Shown piece after piece: positions 2,965 through 26,580 of a DNA stretch of 35,522 nt; position 1 is the stretch's first letter; the number at the start of each line of letters is the position of its first letter. Where the stretch lies: contig VHCW01000048.1 in assembly GCA_016871575.1 (NCBI GenBank), positions 1-35,522 on the forward strand. The letters run 5' to 3'. The DNA comes from Verrucomicrobiota bacterium. GTDB taxonomy: Bacteria; Verrucomicrobiota; Verrucomicrobiia; Palsa-1439. A program made the position numbers and the translations under genes. The notes below the pieces were generated by a model. It saw nothing but the letters and a program-made list of their open reading frames with translations. It had not been told where the DNA came from and ran no database searches.

Positions 2965-3585
2965 TCAGCGTTTCATGAGAAGAAACACAATGAGCCAGAT
3001 CGTGCCGGCAACGATCAACGGCAACGACGCGGCGAAGCCGAGCCGCATGTGCCGCCCAAACTCTGCCGCGCCGTCGTCTTTCTTGCCTTCGGGAGAGAGC
3101 AGTTTTGGATTCAGGCATTCGAGACGGGCGGAGGCGCGCTGCAATTCGGCGCGCGTGTTCTCGATGATGCCGAGCGCCCGGCTCAACTCGGTGCGGACGG
3201 TTGTGCTCGTCCATTCCTCGTCGCGGATGCGTTGTAGTTGGTCGAGCGCCTCGCAAAACGACTGGCGCGTGCTGGCGCAAAGCTCGCCGCGCCGTTGCGC
3301 TTCCAGTTGCTCGCGTTCCAACAAGACCAGTCCGCGCGTGAGCTGCTCGATCATCTCCTGACGTCCGCGCGCGTATTCCTCGTGTTTGCGGCGCAGGTCT
3401 TCGAGGTCCGTCTTTTGTTTTTCCAGTTCCTCCTGCTGACGGCGCAGCAACAGCAGTTGCTCGCGTTTCTGTTGGAGTTCGCGTTCAAGTTCCTCCTTCT
3501 GCTTCGGATTTTCCACTGCGGCATAAGCCGGGGTTTGGTCCGACGCAGACACAACAGTGGCAAAACTATTGTCCGCCTCCTTCAT
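2965..3585 (-). CDS. coiled-coil protein with C-terminal membrane anchor
   Basis: 206 aa, family not recognised. Residues from about 27 to 115 are a strongly charged Glu/Gln/Lys/Arg heptad-type coiled coil (KQKEELERELQQKREQLLLL and onward). A further helical region with two cysteines follows, and the protein ends in one membrane helix at about 182-204 followed by MKR. There is no export signal, so a cytosolic coiled coil tethered to the inner membrane is the simplest reading. The ATG at 3585 is chosen over a start 29 codons upstream because GAGGCGG lies about 9-15 nt before it and the upstream extension is not conserved-looking. It is the first gene of a minus-strand unit with the 142-aa protein and ogt. 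Confidence 0.72.
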   Translation of the reverse strand: MKEADNSFATVVSASDQTPAYAAVENPKQKEELERELQQKREQLLLLRRQQEELEKQKTDLEDLRRKHEEYARGRQEMIEQLTRGLVLLEREQLEAQRRGELCASTRQSFCEALDQLQRIRDEEWTSTTVRTELSRALGIIENTRAELQRASARLECLNPKLLSPEGKKDDGAAEFGRHMRLGFAASLPLIVAGTIWLIVFLLMKR

Positions 3586-4312: not shown

Positions 4313-4321
4313 TCAACCATT

Positions 4322-4357
4322 GCCAAAAGAGTGAAATAGGTATTTCACTCTTTTGGC
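4322..4357. repeat. perfect 36-bp palindrome (17-bp arms, 2-nt loop)
   Basis: The left arm GCCAAAAGAGTGAAATA (4322-4338) and right arm TATTTCACTCTTTTGGC (4341-4357) are exact reverse complements around GG. It sits between the end of the SGNH/DUF4886 gene (4404) and the broken start of the pseudogene (4312). It could serve as a terminator for the minus-strand operon, although there is no clear T run beyond the arm. It could also be a small mobile palindrome, since others occur in this window. Confidence 0.85.
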
Positions 4358-4403
4358 CGGTGAGGTATTCCCAGGACATCCAGAGCGGATGAGATTGCGG
4401 TGG

Positions 4404-5501
4404 CTACGGTCGGCGCAACCCGGCCACCGCCCGATGGGCGGTTTCACGGAGAAACCGCGCGTAGTCAGGATCAAGTCCTTCGGGAACGAAGTTGTTGCCG
4501 ACGATGTTCTCACCGTAGAGCACCTCGTAGAACACACACGCGCCAAGGTATTGGCCGGCGACGCCGGCGTGGTGTCCATCCATGCTGAGCTTGCCTTTGC
4601 TCCAGCGCCAGCCAGTGTGCAGCGAATGGGTTTGGTCAGGCAACGCGGGTAACTTCGCATTCTTGAAATCGAATTTCTTGTCGGGCTTGTAGCCCCAGCG
4701 GCGATTGGTGTCGGCAATCTGGAAAGCGTCGCCGACGGGAATGATGCGCGCGCCGAGTTCGGCGGCGATGGTTCGATAGGCATGACAAAGGCCATCGTAC
4801 ATGATTTTCTGCGTAAACGAATTGGTGGCAAAACGCGAGTCGTCACAACGATATGCCCACGTTTGGTGCATGAGCAGTTTGGCGGTCGGCGCGTATTTCT
4901 TGATGCAATCGCGCAGTTGCCCGGCAAACGGGCGATACGTGCTGATGTCGTGGCTTTTGAGGCTGGCTTGCTGGATGGTCACGTAGTCCCACTGGTCGGA
5001 TTCCAATTCTTGTTTCAGGCTGCGACCAGTCTTATATGCGCCGTTGGTGGCGGCCATGGTCGCGTGCAACTCAAGCGATGCGCCGCCGACCACGATCGGG
5101 CAATGAATCAATTCGTGGCCGCCGGCCCTGACGATGTCGGGCAGGTATTGCGTGGCGTTCCGCGAAAAGCTGTTGCCGATGGTCAACAGGCGCACCGTCT
5201 TGGCTTTTGTTGCGTGGGTAGGCAACTGCGCGTCGTGCAGGCCGAAGTTGAAATGAATCACGTCCCACTTCTTCTCGCCGAGCCAAACATCGAGGTTCTT
5301 CAGCCCGAACCCGGTTGAACTGCAATTGGCCAGTGGCCGGTGCACATTGACCTTGTTCTGAAGCAAGGCGCGCGTCGGCGCGGTGTCGCCCATCGAAGTC
5401 GGATCGCCGATGAGTAAGACGCGCGCCAACCCGGCGACATCTTCAACCGACATCAAGGACGGAACACCGGCAAGCAGGAGGGCGAGGAGACAAAGTTTCA
5501 T
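4404..5501 (-). CDS. exported chimeric SGNH / DUF4886 hydrolase-like protein
   Basis: 365 aa with a Sec signal at 1-18. Residues 27-91 match the front of an SGNH/GDSL hydrolase (RVLLIGDPTSMG, NCSSTGFGLKNLDVWLG, WDVIHFNFGLHD), but the nucleophile position in GDS is proline (GDP, 32-34) and the rest of that domain is absent. From about residue 101 a second SGNH-like unit begins that resembles DUF4886: VRLLTIGNSFSRNATQYLP with S111, GGASLELH, WDYVTIQQAS (171-180) and MDGHHAGVAGQYLGACVFYE with D308 and H310/H311. Only the second half looks catalytic. The ATG at 5501 is chosen because it begins the signal peptide. It is the last gene of the minus-strand run, 68 nt after the FAD gene. The exact substrate (probably an ester) is unknown. 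Confidence 0.85.
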   Translation of the reverse strand: MKLCLLALLLAGVPSLMSVEDVAGLARVLLIGDPTSMGDTAPTRALLQNKVNVHRPLANCSSTGFGLKNLDVWLGEKKWDVIHFNFGLHDAQLPTHATKAKTVRLLTIGNSFSRNATQYLPDIVRAGGHELIHCPIVVGGASLELHATMAATNGAYKTGRSLKQELESDQWDYVTIQQASLKSHDISTYRPFAGQLRDCIKKYAPTAKLLMHQTWAYRCDDSRFATNSFTQKIMYDGLCHAYRTIAAELGARIIPVGDAFQIADTNRRWGYKPDKKFDFKNAKLPALPDQTHSLHTGWRWSKGKLSMDGHHAGVAGQYLGACVFYEVLYGENIVGNNFVPEGLDPDYARFLRETAHRAVAGLRRP

Positions 5502-5569
5502 GTGTGCATGATTGGACGCCAGAAGCCCGGCAAAGTTCAAGCCGGAAATGGTCGGTGTCTTTGGACTTC

Positions 5570-7459
5570 TCACTTTCGAACGGGCTTGGCCTTGAGGGTT
5601 TTGGCCCAGTTCTTGTCCTTCTTCTTGTACTCCTGAAAAGCCTGATGCTCTTCCAATGAAATCTTGCCGTCGCGGTTCTTGTCAATGTGCGGGAAAAGCC
5701 ATTCGTGGCCGGGCTTCGCGAGGTTCCACTCTTCGACAGAGGAAAACGCCCTGACGCTGTACCCGCTGTCTTTGACCGGGTCGTAGTCTTTCCAACTTGG
5801 GTCGAGGCGGATTGGGATGGTTTTGTAATCTTCGGGGTGGCTCATCCAATAGATCGCATTCGCGGCCCAGTGCCGCGGGCTGTTCGGGCCGTAGCCAGTG
5901 CCGTTCCATTCCATCCTGACGCCTGCCTTTTGCATATCGGCTCGCATCGCTGCCACGTCCACCTCGTGGAAAGTTTTTCCCGACCTGACTGCATGGCTGG
6001 CCGCAATGCCGGCGGCCTCTCCCATGACGACGTACGATGATTCCATCCGTATCGAGGCCATGGCGACGTGCGACGCGGACATGCAGACTGGAACAATCAG
6101 GTTCGTGCACTGGTTCTTCTTGGGGATGAGAGACCGGTACGAGAGCGGGTATGGTCCCGGGCTTACGCGGACGAACACTTCCCCTTCGGATGCGACCTTG
6201 CCTTCGTGAGCGATCAGCCGGGGCGGGTAAATGTCTACAGCGTAATACGCCAGACCGACAGAATCATCCACGGCGGTCTGGTGCATCAGGTCGTGCTGGG
6301 TCACGACGTGCTCACCGATCATGCGGCGGCTCATGCGGATATAGAGTTGGTCAGGGAAGTCGCCGTTGTCGGGATATTCGCCTTGGGGCAGCACCGGGTT
6401 CTTGATCCCGCACAGGAGGTTCATTGTCTTGACGTGGTCAATCCAATCGCGCCACACCTTGGCGCGCGTGTCCCAATCGCCGTCGGGATAATCGGCTTGG
6501 CAACCCGGCGGGCCGCTTGAGACCATCGTTGTTCGCGCGTAGTTCCAGGAAAACCAACCAATTACCCCCTTCTTCGAACTCTTCAGTCCGCGGATTACGA
6601 GTTCATATCGCTTCCGGTCGATCTCCCTTCCGAGCGGTTTGAGAGGCGTGCCGCTGGCCTTGTCGCCGTCGGCGTCGCTCATGCCTTTCAGGCGGAAGTT
6701 ATAGGTGAGAATGTATCGCGAGGCCGCCCCGGGTTCGTAGGGTTCTGTGCTGATCATTGGCAGCACGCCGCTCGACGGATCACCGGGAACGACGTATGGG
6801 TCAACATCGAAATGCCGGAGACGCCCCTGCCCGGCGAGGGACTCGCCGTACTGGGCTTTCGACTCGCGCCCGACGGTGTAATCGCAGCCGGCGAAAGCCA
6901 TGAGGTCGCCTTCGTAGCTGGCGTCAATGAACACTCTGGCCTTGACCGAGAACGCTTTCCGCTTTGTTGGTTTCGGCGCGGGAACACCTTCCTCCATGAT
7001 CGGCGCATGATTGAGATGGATCATTTTGATCGTGGTGCCGTCTTTCACGACATCACCCCGGCCGTCCAACCGGTGTTCGGTGATGAACCTGATCCCGGCC
7101 TCCTCGACCTTTTTGCGGATCATCAGACGCGCTTGCCACTGGTTCGCACTGCCGCCTCCCGGCAACGCATAGTCGGCATCATGGAGCTCCCTGGCGATGC
7201 CGCCGATGTCGTTCAGATACAGACAATCCTGCTGGATGCGAATGCCGCCGCCGTGCATTCCGCCCAAATGACGGAACGGCTCGACGATCACTACACTCTG
7301 CCCCCGCCGCGCCGCAGCCAGCGCGGCTGTGACGCCGCTGGCGGTGCCGCCATAGACGCAGACATCCGTCTCGATAATCCCTCTCTCAGCCGCCGGAAAC
7401 GAAGGACAAGAAACGAGAAACACAAAAACAACCGCTAAGTTTCGCATGCGCGGGGACAT
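5570..7459 (-). CDS. exported FAD-dependent oxidoreductase with C-terminal EF-hand
   Basis: 629 aa, FAD_oxidored family (PF12831 type). A signal peptide covers residues 1-24. The dinucleotide fold follows at once: DVCVYGGTASGVTAALAAAR, then VVIVEPFRHLGGMHGGG. Later typical blocks include FIDASYEGDLMAFAGCDYTVGRES, which includes the AxCDYTxGRES motif, and IPKKNQCTNLIVPVCMSASH. After the flavoprotein body, residues 593-604 form one canonical EF-hand loop (DKNRDGKISLEE), followed by a Lys-rich tail; such an appendage is uncommon in this family. The ATG at 7459 follows GAGACG; the ATG at 7447 is also possible. It begins 10 nt after the PDZ gene stops and is probably co-transcribed with it. It likely oxidises a sugar or polyol outside the cytoplasm; substrate unknown. 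Confidence 0.9.
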   Translation of the reverse strand: MSPRMRNLAVVFVFLVSCPSFPAAERGIIETDVCVYGGTASGVTAALAAARRGQSVVIVEPFRHLGGMHGGGIRIQQDCLYLNDIGGIARELHDADYALPGGGSANQWQARLMIRKKVEEAGIRFITEHRLDGRGDVVKDGTTIKMIHLNHAPIMEEGVPAPKPTKRKAFSVKARVFIDASYEGDLMAFAGCDYTVGRESKAQYGESLAGQGRLRHFDVDPYVVPGDPSSGVLPMISTEPYEPGAASRYILTYNFRLKGMSDADGDKASGTPLKPLGREIDRKRYELVIRGLKSSKKGVIGWFSWNYARTTMVSSGPPGCQADYPDGDWDTRAKVWRDWIDHVKTMNLLCGIKNPVLPQGEYPDNGDFPDQLYIRMSRRMIGEHVVTQHDLMHQTAVDDSVGLAYYAVDIYPPRLIAHEGKVASEGEVFVRVSPGPYPLSYRSLIPKKNQCTNLIVPVCMSASHVAMASIRMESSYVVMGEAAGIAASHAVRSGKTFHEVDVAAMRADMQKAGVRMEWNGTGYGPNSPRHWAANAIYWMSHPEDYKTIPIRLDPSWKDYDPVKDSGYSVRAFSSVEEWNLAKPGHEWLFPHIDKNRDGKISLEEHQAFQEYKKKDKNWAKTLKAKPVRK

Positions 7460-23039: not shown

Positions 23040-24371
23040 ATGAAAAAAGCGCCGCAACAGACTTGGGGCGGACGATTCTCCGCCGGCCCGGCAGACATTG
23101 TCAAGCGGTTCACGGAAAGCGTCAGCTTCGACTGGCGGTTGTACCCGCATGACATCGCCGGTTCGATTGCCCACGCGAAAGGTCTCGCGAAAATCGGCGT
23201 CCTCACGAACGCCGAGGCCGCGAAAATCATCCGGCGATTGCGGGCCATCCGGCCCGAACCGGATCCATCGCTCGAGGACGTTCACATGAACGTCGAGGCT
23301 GCGCTTGGTTCCGTCGGACGGAAGCTTCACACCGGACGGAGCCGCAACGACCAAGTGGCGACCGACATCCGGCTCTGGCTCCGGTCGGAAATCTCGAATC
23401 TCAAATCTCAAGTGTCCAATCTCCAGAAATCGCTTGTGACGCTTGCGGACAAGAACTCCGGCGTCATTATCCCCGGCTACACACATCTTCAGCGGGCGCA
23501 ACCGGTATTGCTTGCGCATCATTTGCTCGCCTACGTCGAGATGTTGGCGCGCGACGCCGCGCGGTTTGATGACTGCGCGAAGCGGGTCAACGTCTGCCCG
23601 CTCGGCTCCGGCGCCATCGCCGGGAGCACGCTGCGGCTGGCGCGGGAGTTTGTCGCAAAAGAACTTGGTTTCGACGGCGTGACGCACAACTCGATGGATG
23701 CCGTCAGCGACCGGGATTTTGCGGCGGAATTTCTCGCGGCGGCGGCGATTTGCGGAATGCACCTCTCGCGGCTGGCCGAAGACCTCGTGCTCTGGTCAAG
23801 CGCCGAGTTCGGGTTTATCCGGATCGGCGACGCCTACACGACCGGCTCGTCGTTGATGCCGCAAAAGAAAAATCCTGACATCGCGGAGCTGGTGCGGGGC
23901 AAGACCGGCCGGTTGTACGGGAATCTTGTCGCTTTGTTGACGATCCTCAAGGGGCTTCCGATGACCTACAACCGCGACATGCAGGAGGACAAGGAGCCGC
24001 TGTTCGACAGCGCTGACACGCTCAGCGCGTCGCTGCAAGTCATGGCCGACATGCTCCGTCACACCAAGATCAACAAGGCGAAGTGCGAAGCCGCCGCCAG
24101 TGATCCGTTGCTGCTGGCGACCGATCTGGCTGATTTTCTCGTCAAGCAGGGGATGCCGTTCCGACGGGCGCATCACGCCGTCGGCGCGCTTGTTGCGGAG
24201 TCGGAGCGCACCGGCGTGCCGCTGCCAAAACTCGCGGCGAAGAAATACGGCGCGTCAGCCGCGAAAGTATTCGATGTTCGTCGGGCGCTGGCGGCCCGGA
24301 ACATCCCTGGTGCGCCATCGCCGAAACAAGTCTGCGCACAACTGGCGCGCTGGAAAGCGGTCCTCCGGTAG
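23040..24371 (+). CDS. argH: argininosuccinate lyase
   Basis: 443 aa, last enzyme of arginine synthesis: splits argininosuccinate into arginine and fumarate. The family signature GSSLMPQKKNPD starts at residue 269 and carries the catalytic serine. WGGRFSAGP at the N-terminus, LHTGRSRNDQVATDIRLWLR and PGYTHLQRAQPVLLAHH are all diagnostic. Length is slightly under the usual 455-465. Residues of the SEISNLKSQVSNLQ segment are encoded by five 7-bp repeats (23390-23424), at a point where other ArgH proteins have a variable helix. There is no ribosome site before the ATG. The ROK gene follows immediately after the stop. Confidence 0.96.
   Translation: MKKAPQQTWGGRFSAGPADIVKRFTESVSFDWRLYPHDIAGSIAHAKGLAKIGVLTNAEAAKIIRRLRAIRPEPDPSLEDVHMNVEAALGSVGRKLHTGRSRNDQVATDIRLWLRSEISNLKSQVSNLQKSLVTLADKNSGVIIPGYTHLQRAQPVLLAHHLLAYVEMLARDAARFDDCAKRVNVCPLGSGAIAGSTLRLAREFVAKELGFDGVTHNSMDAVSDRDFAAEFLAAAAICGMHLSRLAEDLVLWSSAEFGFIRIGDAYTTGSSLMPQKKNPDIAELVRGKTGRLYGNLVALLTILKGLPMTYNRDMQEDKEPLFDSADTLSASLQVMADMLRHTKINKAKCEAAASDPLLLATDLADFLVKQGMPFRRAHHAVGALVAESERTGVPLPKLAAKKYGASAAKVFDVRRALAARNIPGAPSPKQVCAQLARWKAVLR
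23390..23424 (+). repeat. heptamer tandem repeat inside argH
   Basis: Five units in a row: AATCTCG, AATCTCA, AATCTCA, AGTGTCC, AATCTCC. The frame stays open through them. Confidence 0.6.
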
Positions 24372-25208
24372 ATGTATCTCGGCGTCGAGATTGGCGGGAC
24401 GAAATTGCAGGCCGGCGTTTGCGACAGGCACGGCCGCGTCCGCCAAGTTGCCCGCGTCGCCGTCGAACGCGAACTTGGCCGTGACGGTATCTTGCGCCAG
24501 CTTGAGCGGCTCGTCGGGCAGCATCGCCGGGTGAACGCCATCGGAGTCGGTTTTGGAGGCCCGGTGGATGTGGAGCGGGGACGGGTGCTGAAATCGCACC
24601 ACGTGGCTGGTTGGTCCGGCTTCGAACTGCGACGATGGTGCGAGAAACGATTTGGCTTGCCTGTCGTTGTCGAGAACGACTCGAATTGCGCGACGCTGGC
24701 CGAGGCACGTGTTGGGGCGGGACGCGGGAAACGCGTCGTGTTGTACACCAACATCGGGACCGGCATCGGCGGCGGTTTGGCCGTGGACGGAGAACTCTAC
24801 ACCGGACGGTTCGGCGCCATGGAAATCGGCCATACCCGTTACTGCCAGCCATCGCGCCATGACACAACTTTGAAACGGTCGTTACAAAGTTGTGTAATGG
24901 GGGCGACGGTGGAATCATTGGCGTCGGGGCTGGCGATTGAGCGCGGCGTCAGCACCGTTGAGGAGGCAGCGCGCTGGTACGGCGCGGCAATTGCCAACGC
25001 GATCACGTTGCTCAATCCTGATGTCGTCGTGGTTGGCGGCGGCGTCTCGTTGGCCGGCGCGAAGTTCTGGCGGCCTTTGCGCGAAACGGTGCGGCGCCAA
25101 GTCTTTCCTCCCTTTCGCAACAACTTCAAGCTCGTGCCGGCGGCGCTGGGGGAAACGGTGGTCGTGGTGGGCGCCGCGTTGCTTGCGATGGAGCGACGTC
25201 GCCCGTAA
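24372..25208 (+). CDS. ROK-family sugar kinase with disrupted zinc motif
   Basis: 278 aa. ROK kinases phosphorylate glucose, fructose or amino sugars. The phosphate loop GVEIGGTKLQAGV (4-16), GVGFGGPVD (58-66), VENDSNCATLAEA with catalytic D103, and TNIGTGIGGGLAVDGELYTG are intact, as is E151-I-G-H154. The CxCGxxGCxE zinc motif that normally follows is not recognisable. In its place is a stretch at about 162-177 encoded by a 44-bp palindrome (24857-24900), after which ATVESLASG resumes the family pattern. The protein is shorter than the usual 290-320 aa. There is no helix-turn-helix, so it is an enzyme and not an NagC-type repressor. It starts directly after argH with no gap. Whether it is active without zinc is uncertain. 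Confidence 0.87.
   Translation: MYLGVEIGGTKLQAGVCDRHGRVRQVARVAVERELGRDGILRQLERLVGQHRRVNAIGVGFGGPVDVERGRVLKSHHVAGWSGFELRRWCEKRFGLPVVVENDSNCATLAEARVGAGRGKRVVLYTNIGTGIGGGLAVDGELYTGRFGAMEIGHTRYCQPSRHDTTLKRSLQSCVMGATVESLASGLAIERGVSTVEEAARWYGAAIANAITLLNPDVVVVGGGVSLAGAKFWRPLRETVRRQVFPPFRNNFKLVPAALGETVVVVGAALLAMERRRP
24857..24900. repeat. 44-bp imperfect palindrome inside the ROK gene
   Basis: Core arms ACACAACTTTG (24862-24872) and CAAAGTTGTGT (24885-24895) are perfect. Outward, CCAT pairs with ATGG after one mismatch; inward, AACG pairs with CGTT after one mismatch, leaving a GT loop. It is translated in frame as part of the kinase. Confidence 0.8.
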
Positions 25209-25261
25209 CACCAGACGGCCGGTTCGGCACCCAACTCCCAGACAACACGAGGAACTGCGCG

Positions 25262-26473
25262 CTATCGTTTTCGCGCGAGCACGCCGGCGCGCGTGCGCAG
25301 GCGCAGGGCGTTCAACCGGATAAACCCGGTTGCATCGGACTGGTTGTACGCGCCCTGATCGGCTTCCATCGTGGCGACATACGGGTTGTAGAGCGAGACG
25401 GGACTCTTTCGTCCTGCCGTGATGATGTTGCCCTTGTAGAGCTTCAAGCGCACGGTGCCGCTGACGTTCCGCTGGCTCTCGGTTACGAACGCCTGGAGCG
25501 CCTCGCGTTCGGGACTGAACCAGAACCCGTAATAAACCAGCTCGGCGTAGCGCGGAATCAATGAATCGCGCAGATGCATGACCTCCCGATCCATCGTCAA
25601 CGTCTCCATCTGCCGGTGCGCGAAATGCAGGATCGTGCCGCCGGGCGTTTCATAGACGCCGCGACTCTTCATTCCGACAAACCGGTTCTCAACAAGGTCA
25701 ACCCGTCCGACGCCGTGTTTGCCGCCGAGCTTGTTCAACGCCCGCATGACGCCGGCGGGACTGAGCCGTTTCCCGTTGACGGCGATGCAATTGCCCCGCT
25801 CGAAGTCGAGGACGACGTATTCGGGTTTGTCGGGCGCGTCTTCCGGCGAAACGCTGAGCTTGAAGATTTCCTTGGGCGGTTCGAGCCACGGGTCTTCGAG
25901 GATGCCGCTCTCGTAGGAGATGTGAAGAAGGTTCCGGTCCATCGAGTACGGTTTCTTGGCGGTGGCTTCCACGTTGATCCCTTTTTCCGCGCAATACGCA
26001 AGCATCTCGGCGCGTCCCTTGAATTGTTCTTGGTACTCCGTCAACCGCCACGGCGCGATGATCTTGAGGTTCGGCGCGAGCGCCGCGTAGGTCAACTCGA
26101 ACCGGCATTGATCGTTGCCTTTGCCCGTCGCGCCGTGGGCGACGGTATCGGCTTTCTCTTTGCGGGCGATGTCCACGTGCGCCTTCGCGATGAGCGGGCG
26201 CGCGATGCTGGTGCCGAGATAATACTGGTTCTCGTAAATCGCCCCGGCCTGGATCATCGGAAAAATGAAATCGCGGGCGAACTCCTCAACCAGATCGAGC
26301 GCATAGAATTTGCTCGCGCCGGTTGCCTTGGCCTTCTTATCGAGGCCGCGCAACTCCTCTTCCTGGCCGATGTCGGCGCAGTACGCAATGATGTCGCATT
26401 GGTATGTTTCCTTCAACCAATGCAGGATGACCGAAGTGTCCAATCCGCCGGAATAAGCAACGACAATTTTCAT
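25262..26473 (-). CDS. argG: argininosuccinate synthase
   Basis: 403 aa. Joins citrulline and aspartate with ATP in arginine synthesis. The ATP pyrophosphatase loop is YSGGLDTS (7-14). [30 protein letters not shown] and [19 protein letters not shown] are family signatures, and length is normal. The ATG at 26473 is chosen because the family starts with [10 protein letters not shown]; the upstream extension would add 17 unrelated residues. It is convergent with the ROK gene across 53 nt with no strong hairpin. The likely promoter is 26484-26512, very close to the ATG, with no ribosome site. Confidence 0.96.
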
Positions 26474-26483
26474 AGTGGCGGGA

Positions 26484-26512
26484 GTTGTACACGAAAAGTC
26501 CTGTGGCCGCAA
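26484..26512 (-). promoter_or_regulatory. candidate promoter of argG
   Basis: On the minus strand TTGCGG (26512-26507), a 17-nt spacer and TACAAC (26489-26484), 10 nt before the ATG at 26473. Confidence 0.35.
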
Positions 26513-26580
26513 CCATCTGTTCATCGCAAGCTTCTGTCAGGGCGCAGTGTGGGCGAGACTTTTGATCCCTGCTTTGTTCC

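Follow-up and report, generated by a model that had tools for sequence, protein, structure and literature searches.

A 42-nt palindrome in a ROK-family gene and a candidate mobile DNA system with a PaaX-like gene in Verrucomicrobiota

How does a near-perfect palindrome come to lie within the reading frame of a gene that is otherwise intact? The question is raised by a ROK-family gene in a 35,522-nt stretch of Verrucomicrobiota DNA (contig VHCW01000048.1 of assembly GCA_016871575.1), the whole of which was analyzed and is referred to as the window, and for which an initial annotation had proposed the in-frame insertion of a small palindromic element that rewrote the zinc motif of the kinase. 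The answer that we favor, with a probability of roughly 65%, is that the palindrome is a solitary, non-autonomous mobile unit of 42 nt, whose autonomous form consists of a PaaX-like gene between two such palindromes, the encoded protein driving dispersal in a manner similar to that of REPs and RAYTs. This gene-plus-palindrome system with a PaaX-like protein was missed by the initial annotation.

The palindrome in the ROK-family gene

Two features of the window are central to the analysis:

24372 to 25208, + strand: ROK-family sugar kinase/regulator-like gene with an insertion, without CxCGxxGCxE whether the palindrome is counted or left out
24858 to 24899, no strand: solitary palindrome within the ROK gene, whose cognate element is the PaaX-like one at C3:95383-96282, also in this genome

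The open reading frame is intact, codes for 278 amino acids and matches the Pfam ROK family with E=2e-46. Its start codon directly follows the stop codon (TAGATG) of a gene for argininosuccinate lyase, and a gene for argininosuccinate synthase is oriented toward it on the opposite strand, all within positions 23040-26524 of the window. A repeat search in the window, together with the reading of the frame, bears out the near-perfect palindrome noticed in this gene, with arms of 21 nt each (24857-24877 and 24880-24900) that are 90% complementary and separated by a 2-nt spacer. By comparison with other copies, the symmetric unit comprises 42 nt, 24858-24899, centered between 24878 and 24879, which correspond to codons 163-176 and thus to exactly 14 codons, in frame, encoding the peptide HDTTLKRSLQSCVM. 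With either strand taken alone, the hairpin fold of this palindrome has a z of about -4.6, i.e. it is ~4.5 SD better than that of shuffled sequence.

Concerning the relatives, the ROK protein of the congener G001, which is 80% identical, reads EIGHTK-IGDKTVEELASG at the palindrome site, while further homologues of the same family read EIGHTRYFVRGR-WRILEELSSG, EIGHTVIG-TRRLEALASG and similar. The insertion accordingly measures 14 codons with respect to the G010 type and 18 codons with respect to G001. Since the residues of the palindrome are absent from these relatives, and since related palindromes are present elsewhere in the genome so that the copy is not unique, the reading as an in-frame insertion of a small palindromic element stands. 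The proposed rewriting of the zinc site falls, because the ROK lineage had already lost the motif: CxCGxxGCxE is found in none of the same-family ROK homologues compared, the congener included. As judged from these alignments, the palindrome is an in-frame insertion in a loop whose zinc motif was already gone.

A strict 34-nt architecture, ACACAAyTTTGtAACG NN CGTTaCAAArTTGTGT, occurs five times in this genome, namely in queC (in frame), in the intergenic stretch C32:22567-22600, in the ROK gene and twice on contig C3, where the two copies are 866 bp apart and flank a single 275-aa gene. The same architecture is missing from all 92 relatives, as expected given that every element has its own palindrome (see below).

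Palindromes on both sides of PaaX-like genes

The product of the C3 gene matches PaaX_M (a Cas2-like domain) in Pfam with E=1e-18, together with weak PaaX_C and Cas2 matches, and it is to the palindromes of this element that the ROK palindrome is closest, with identities of 33/42 to the left and 30/42 to the right one, the next best element reaching 26/42. PaaX-like homologues number at least 15 in this genome (G000) and 3 or 4 in G002; some further genomes of the class have 1-2, and the congener has none. The 34 loci obtained from the named genome collection, with a conserved-stretch search that used a closer subset of the family alignment, all belong to Verrucomicrobiota wherever the title names the phylum or a lower taxon, two titles giving only 'bacterium'.

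The gene and its cognate palindrome are associated. A matching palindrome of ~42 nt lies on both sides of the gene in 14 of the 15 copies here and at 30 of the 33 loci taken from other Verrucomicrobiota, typically with a spacing of ~860 bp centre to centre, whereas the same criterion is satisfied at 21 of 3000 random positions, which include stretches of this genome holding real elements. A stricter criterion retains 14/15 and 28/33 loci, respectively, versus 7/3000 random positions. The palindrome sequence varies between elements and left matches right within one element, the mean identity being 33/42 within and 17/42 between elements (permutation p<1e-4). When non-orthologous copies are compared, e.g. 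L178 with L190 or L206, similarity begins and ends near the outer palindrome edges, hence the unit is palindrome-gene-palindrome, ~900 bp in length. Distances between proteins and distances between palindromes show a modest correlation (Mantel r=0.27, p=0.005).

The C3 element is found between an ECF sigma gene and anti-sigma/LTXXQ genes, a gap of 1.09 kb here compared with 0.12-0.51 kb in four relatives, and neither Cas1 nor a CRISPR array was seen beside it. Four related genomes share one element at the same place, which indicates that the system is not very active. By eye, no consistent target-site duplication is seen outside the 42-nt unit in a sample that holds no close empty-site pair, and neither an excision footprint nor a recent transposition was found in the sequences compared.

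It should be noted that at the locus shared by these four genomes, all from closely related soil Verrucomicrobia, an additional palindrome-bounded stretch of ~230 bp is present in L183 and L192 (about 3200-3500) and absent in L181 and L195. The difference suggests loss or gain between palindromes, which would make these also sites of local rearrangement.

The two arms of the palindromes covary. The paired fraction per position ranges from 0.54 to 0.98, versus 0.26 to 0.96 for shuffled arms, and at nearly all of the 21 positions it is higher than in any shuffle. In L049 the outer arms differ between left and right, yet each palindrome is self-complementary, so that base pairing is kept and not a fixed sequence.

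Solitary palindromes

Away from any PaaX-like gene, about 20 solitary palindromes are dispersed over 1.19 Mb, or roughly 17 per Mb, a count drawn from these 1.19 Mb of the 5.19-Mb genome and from targeted searches. Scanning 791 kb of this genome for palindromes yielded 23 matches versus none in Markov-shuffled sequence at the same threshold, and in 396 kb from family members without a PaaX-like gene three palindromes of score 14 appeared, none of them of the 42-nt type. All but one of the 22 tabulated solitary copies best match a single element, with 32-41 of 42 positions identical, and both palindromes of the best element rank top for 20 of 21 copies, the exception being C17:42591.

Solitary copies are mostly intergenic, those inside conserved genes being located in ROK, miaA and queC. 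The miaA copy corresponds to a net gain of 8-12 codons with respect to relatives, in frame. In queC (L039 3705-4361, contig C75) there is no length change with respect to relatives, and LHNFVTIVTPLC aligns ungapped to LNSRVKIIAPFR; thus the palindrome unit may also replace resident sequence instead of only inserting. Clean insertion as a universal rule was rejected on the basis of these two genes.

The PaaX-like protein family

An alignment of 24 PaaX-like members defines one family, with a winged helix followed by a Cas2-like domain with an invariant Asp and the PaaX C-terminus. Invariant positions are W108, D114, R123, G136, L138, Q139, S141 and W143 together with a DPLLP motif, and W104/D105/G106 are nearly so. 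The AlphaFold2 model of the protein has a mean pLDDT of 82, and Foldseek retrieves E. coli PaaX (PDB 8a39, E=6.7e-9) and Rv0674 as best matches, followed by Cas2 with weak E-values (probability 0.97-0.99, E about 0.1-0.3). The Pfam description of PaaX_M likewise makes the central domain Cas2-like, and the invariant Asp falls close to where the Cas2 profile match begins, the place at which Cas2 has its Asp. The family differs from Cas2 in remaining below the Cas2 cut-offs and in the fusion to a winged helix and a C-terminal domain, and a PADLOC search for defence systems returned weak Cas2 matches only. For the gene of the C3 copy, Pfam detects no recombinase domain of the DDE, HUH, serine or tyrosine type. 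A phage origin was considered and rejected, since no relative was found in viral contigs and there was no PHROG match.

The likeness to PaaX repressors comprises the fold, the domain order and the DPLLP motif at the C-terminus. E. coli PaaX aligns lengthwise with the family but has other residues in place of the Asp (D114) and the Gln-Ser pair (Q139/S141) that the family carries at Cas2-like positions. Further differences are the score against the NCBIfam PaaX regulator model TIGR02277, 38-58 bits and thus far under the equivalog cut-off of 264.55, and the palindromes that accompany the PaaX-like family.

The alternative that survives best, although we consider it unlikely, is that the PaaX-like protein acts simply as a transcription factor, with the flanking palindromes as operators around its own gene and the remaining ones as its regulon. 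Those PaaX relatives whose function is known act as transcription factors, which makes binding to DNA without any mobility possible, and this explanation accommodates the fold and full-length similarity to PaaX, the palindromic dimer sites typical of winged-helix repressors and the intergenic location of many solitary copies. It does not sit well with a palindrome that came as an insertion within the ROK coding sequence and with others in queC and miaA, nor with the pairing kept in L049 in place of a fixed sequence. An operator of the same type 3' of nearly every gene copy would be unusual, the presence of 15 diverged copies in a genome whose congener lacks the gene altogether is not regulator-like, and the equivalog score also argues against it.

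Origin of the solitary copies

Solitary palindromes have on average 18.9 of 21 positions paired and those flanking elements 16.7 of 21 (means compared without a significance test). In the solitary copy C12:38178, the left arm of the imperfect left palindrome of the C210 element is exactly doubled, and C6:4897 is right-type on both arms, with 40/42 identities to the right versus 26/42 to the left palindrome of its element. Taken together, the near-perfect solitary copies and these two cases suggest hairpin copying, with one arm templating the other.

Next in plausibility, and again improbable, is that the solitary copies are scars, left where a whole element inserted and was then deleted by recombination between its palindromes, as in a solo LTR. 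The palindromes flanking an element repeat each other in direct as well as in inverted orientation, and the ~230-bp stretch present or absent among four related genomes would fit such a process. A scar is expected to combine the left half of the left palindrome with the right half of the right one, whereas C6:4897 has right-type arms only, and several solitary copies are more perfect than either flank. Scars as sole origin are therefore disfavored by both arm types and perfection.

Comparison with known palindromic systems

RAYT/REP systems, as characterized in PMC2817692 and PMC3116915, present a single gene flanked by two palindromes, dispersed REPs and palindromes kept by complementary changes. 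Both a gene between two matching palindromes and the same palindromes as dispersed solitary copies are found here, along with compensatory changes, several diverged types per genome and some copies within genes. The differences concern the protein, which is PaaX-like/Cas2-like and has no Y1 HUH domain (PF01797) by Pfam, the palindromes, which are ~42 nt long, nearly loop-free, symmetric and without a GTAG/CGTC head or other common tag, and the copy number, in the tens and not in the hundreds. Hence, the system is outside the RAYT/REP class.

It is very improbable that the palindromes represent common REPs mobilized by tyrosine transposases of the IS200/IS605 type (RAYTs). The genome does have nine Y1_Tnp matches, and PMC3733652 describes in-gene REPs and RPEs, including GTAG REPs, a different repeat class, in genes of the verrucomicrobium Opitutus terrae. 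None of the four Y1_Tnp loci examined among the nine matches has these palindromes, however, and the palindromes show no GTAG/CGTC end tag and no loop, have stems of ~20 bp within 42 nt compared with 6-9 bp reported for most GTAG REPs, and are present at nearly every PaaX-like gene. Chance mutation within the ROK gene, with which the ungapped alignment of the queC palindrome to the residues of its relatives would agree, has a negligible probability in view of the same 34-nt architecture occurring five times in the genome and of the insertion seen in ROK relative to its relatives.

The analogy to Rickettsia palindromic elements (RPEs) drawn in the initial annotation is fair in concept, the likeness being in-frame palindromic insertion in coding genes, here in ROK and, as a net in-frame gain, in miaA. 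According to PMC3733652, the RPEs of R. conorii carry a CGTC end tag. The palindromes described here have none, and it is this reported tag that sets them apart. A further difference is that a partner gene is bracketed here by the same palindrome, while RPEs are not known to have a partner gene.

Proposed mechanism and implications

In the reading that we prefer, a mobile palindrome dispersed by its PaaX-like gene, the protein would recognize its own palindrome through the winged helix plus a hairpin or cruciform structure, and the protein, or a process that needs it, would get copies of the palindrome inserted elsewhere, via the Cas2-like domain, whose conserved Asp may be catalytic, or via host enzymes. 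Such a spread would resemble the role proposed for RAYTs in REP dispersal. New copies would come out as near-perfect palindromes if one arm served as template for the other in a hairpin intermediate. Given that the 42-nt unit equals 14 codons, a gene that receives it can remain in frame, and in the ROK protein the additional residues would be tolerated in a loop.

More tentatively, and at somewhat less than even odds, the PaaX-like protein could represent a new class of mobility enzyme, a winged-helix/Cas2-like nuclease that moves its cognate 42-bp palindrome via a hairpin and is unrelated to known transposase or recombinase folds, with a possible link of the Cas2 fold to mobile DNA.

No description of a PaaX-like gene linked to palindromes or to mobility turned up in the literature searched, preprints apart, which is not proof that none exists; this small mobile DNA system of Verrucomicrobiota is apparently undescribed. 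If the reading is true, there is a second, unrelated way in which bacteria carry mobile palindromes of the REP kind, one found across Verrucomicrobiota, and proteins of this phylum that are annotated as PaaX-like regulators may belong to mobile elements. With a specific protein and a short, well-defined site on the DNA, binding, cleavage and transposition can be tested directly. The system is also relevant to the entry of palindromes into coding genes with the frame kept, and to the question of where the Cas2 fold came from.

Additional palindromes

The window contains a further palindrome of the same superfamily as the ROK copy, belonging to a different element and located just 3' of the ORF 4404-5573 (- strand):

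4319 to 4360, no strand: second solitary palindrome of the window, ATTGCCAAAAGAGTGAAATAGGTATTTCACTCTTTTGGCCGG, matching by eye the palindromes of the C59:11610-12350 element (TGAGCCAAAAGAGTGAAATACCTATATCACTCTTTTGGCAAT)

A final point concerns individual palindromes elsewhere in the genome. Three identical G+C-rich 42-nt palindromes, GGCCGCGTCACCCGACGCGGCGCCGCGTGAGGTCACGCGGCC, at G000:C5:24589, 30549 and 31662, belong to a different repeat family, without link to PaaX-like genes. C2:61428, the one tabulated copy left unassigned above, is a near-perfect solitary palindrome that no sampled element matches closely, and its PaaX-like partner may have been lost or may lie in the unassembled part of the genome. 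At G000:C8:11018 and 11344, two solitary copies of the same type lie 326 bp apart, and the stretch between them has no PaaX-like gene; the pair could be a shortened element.
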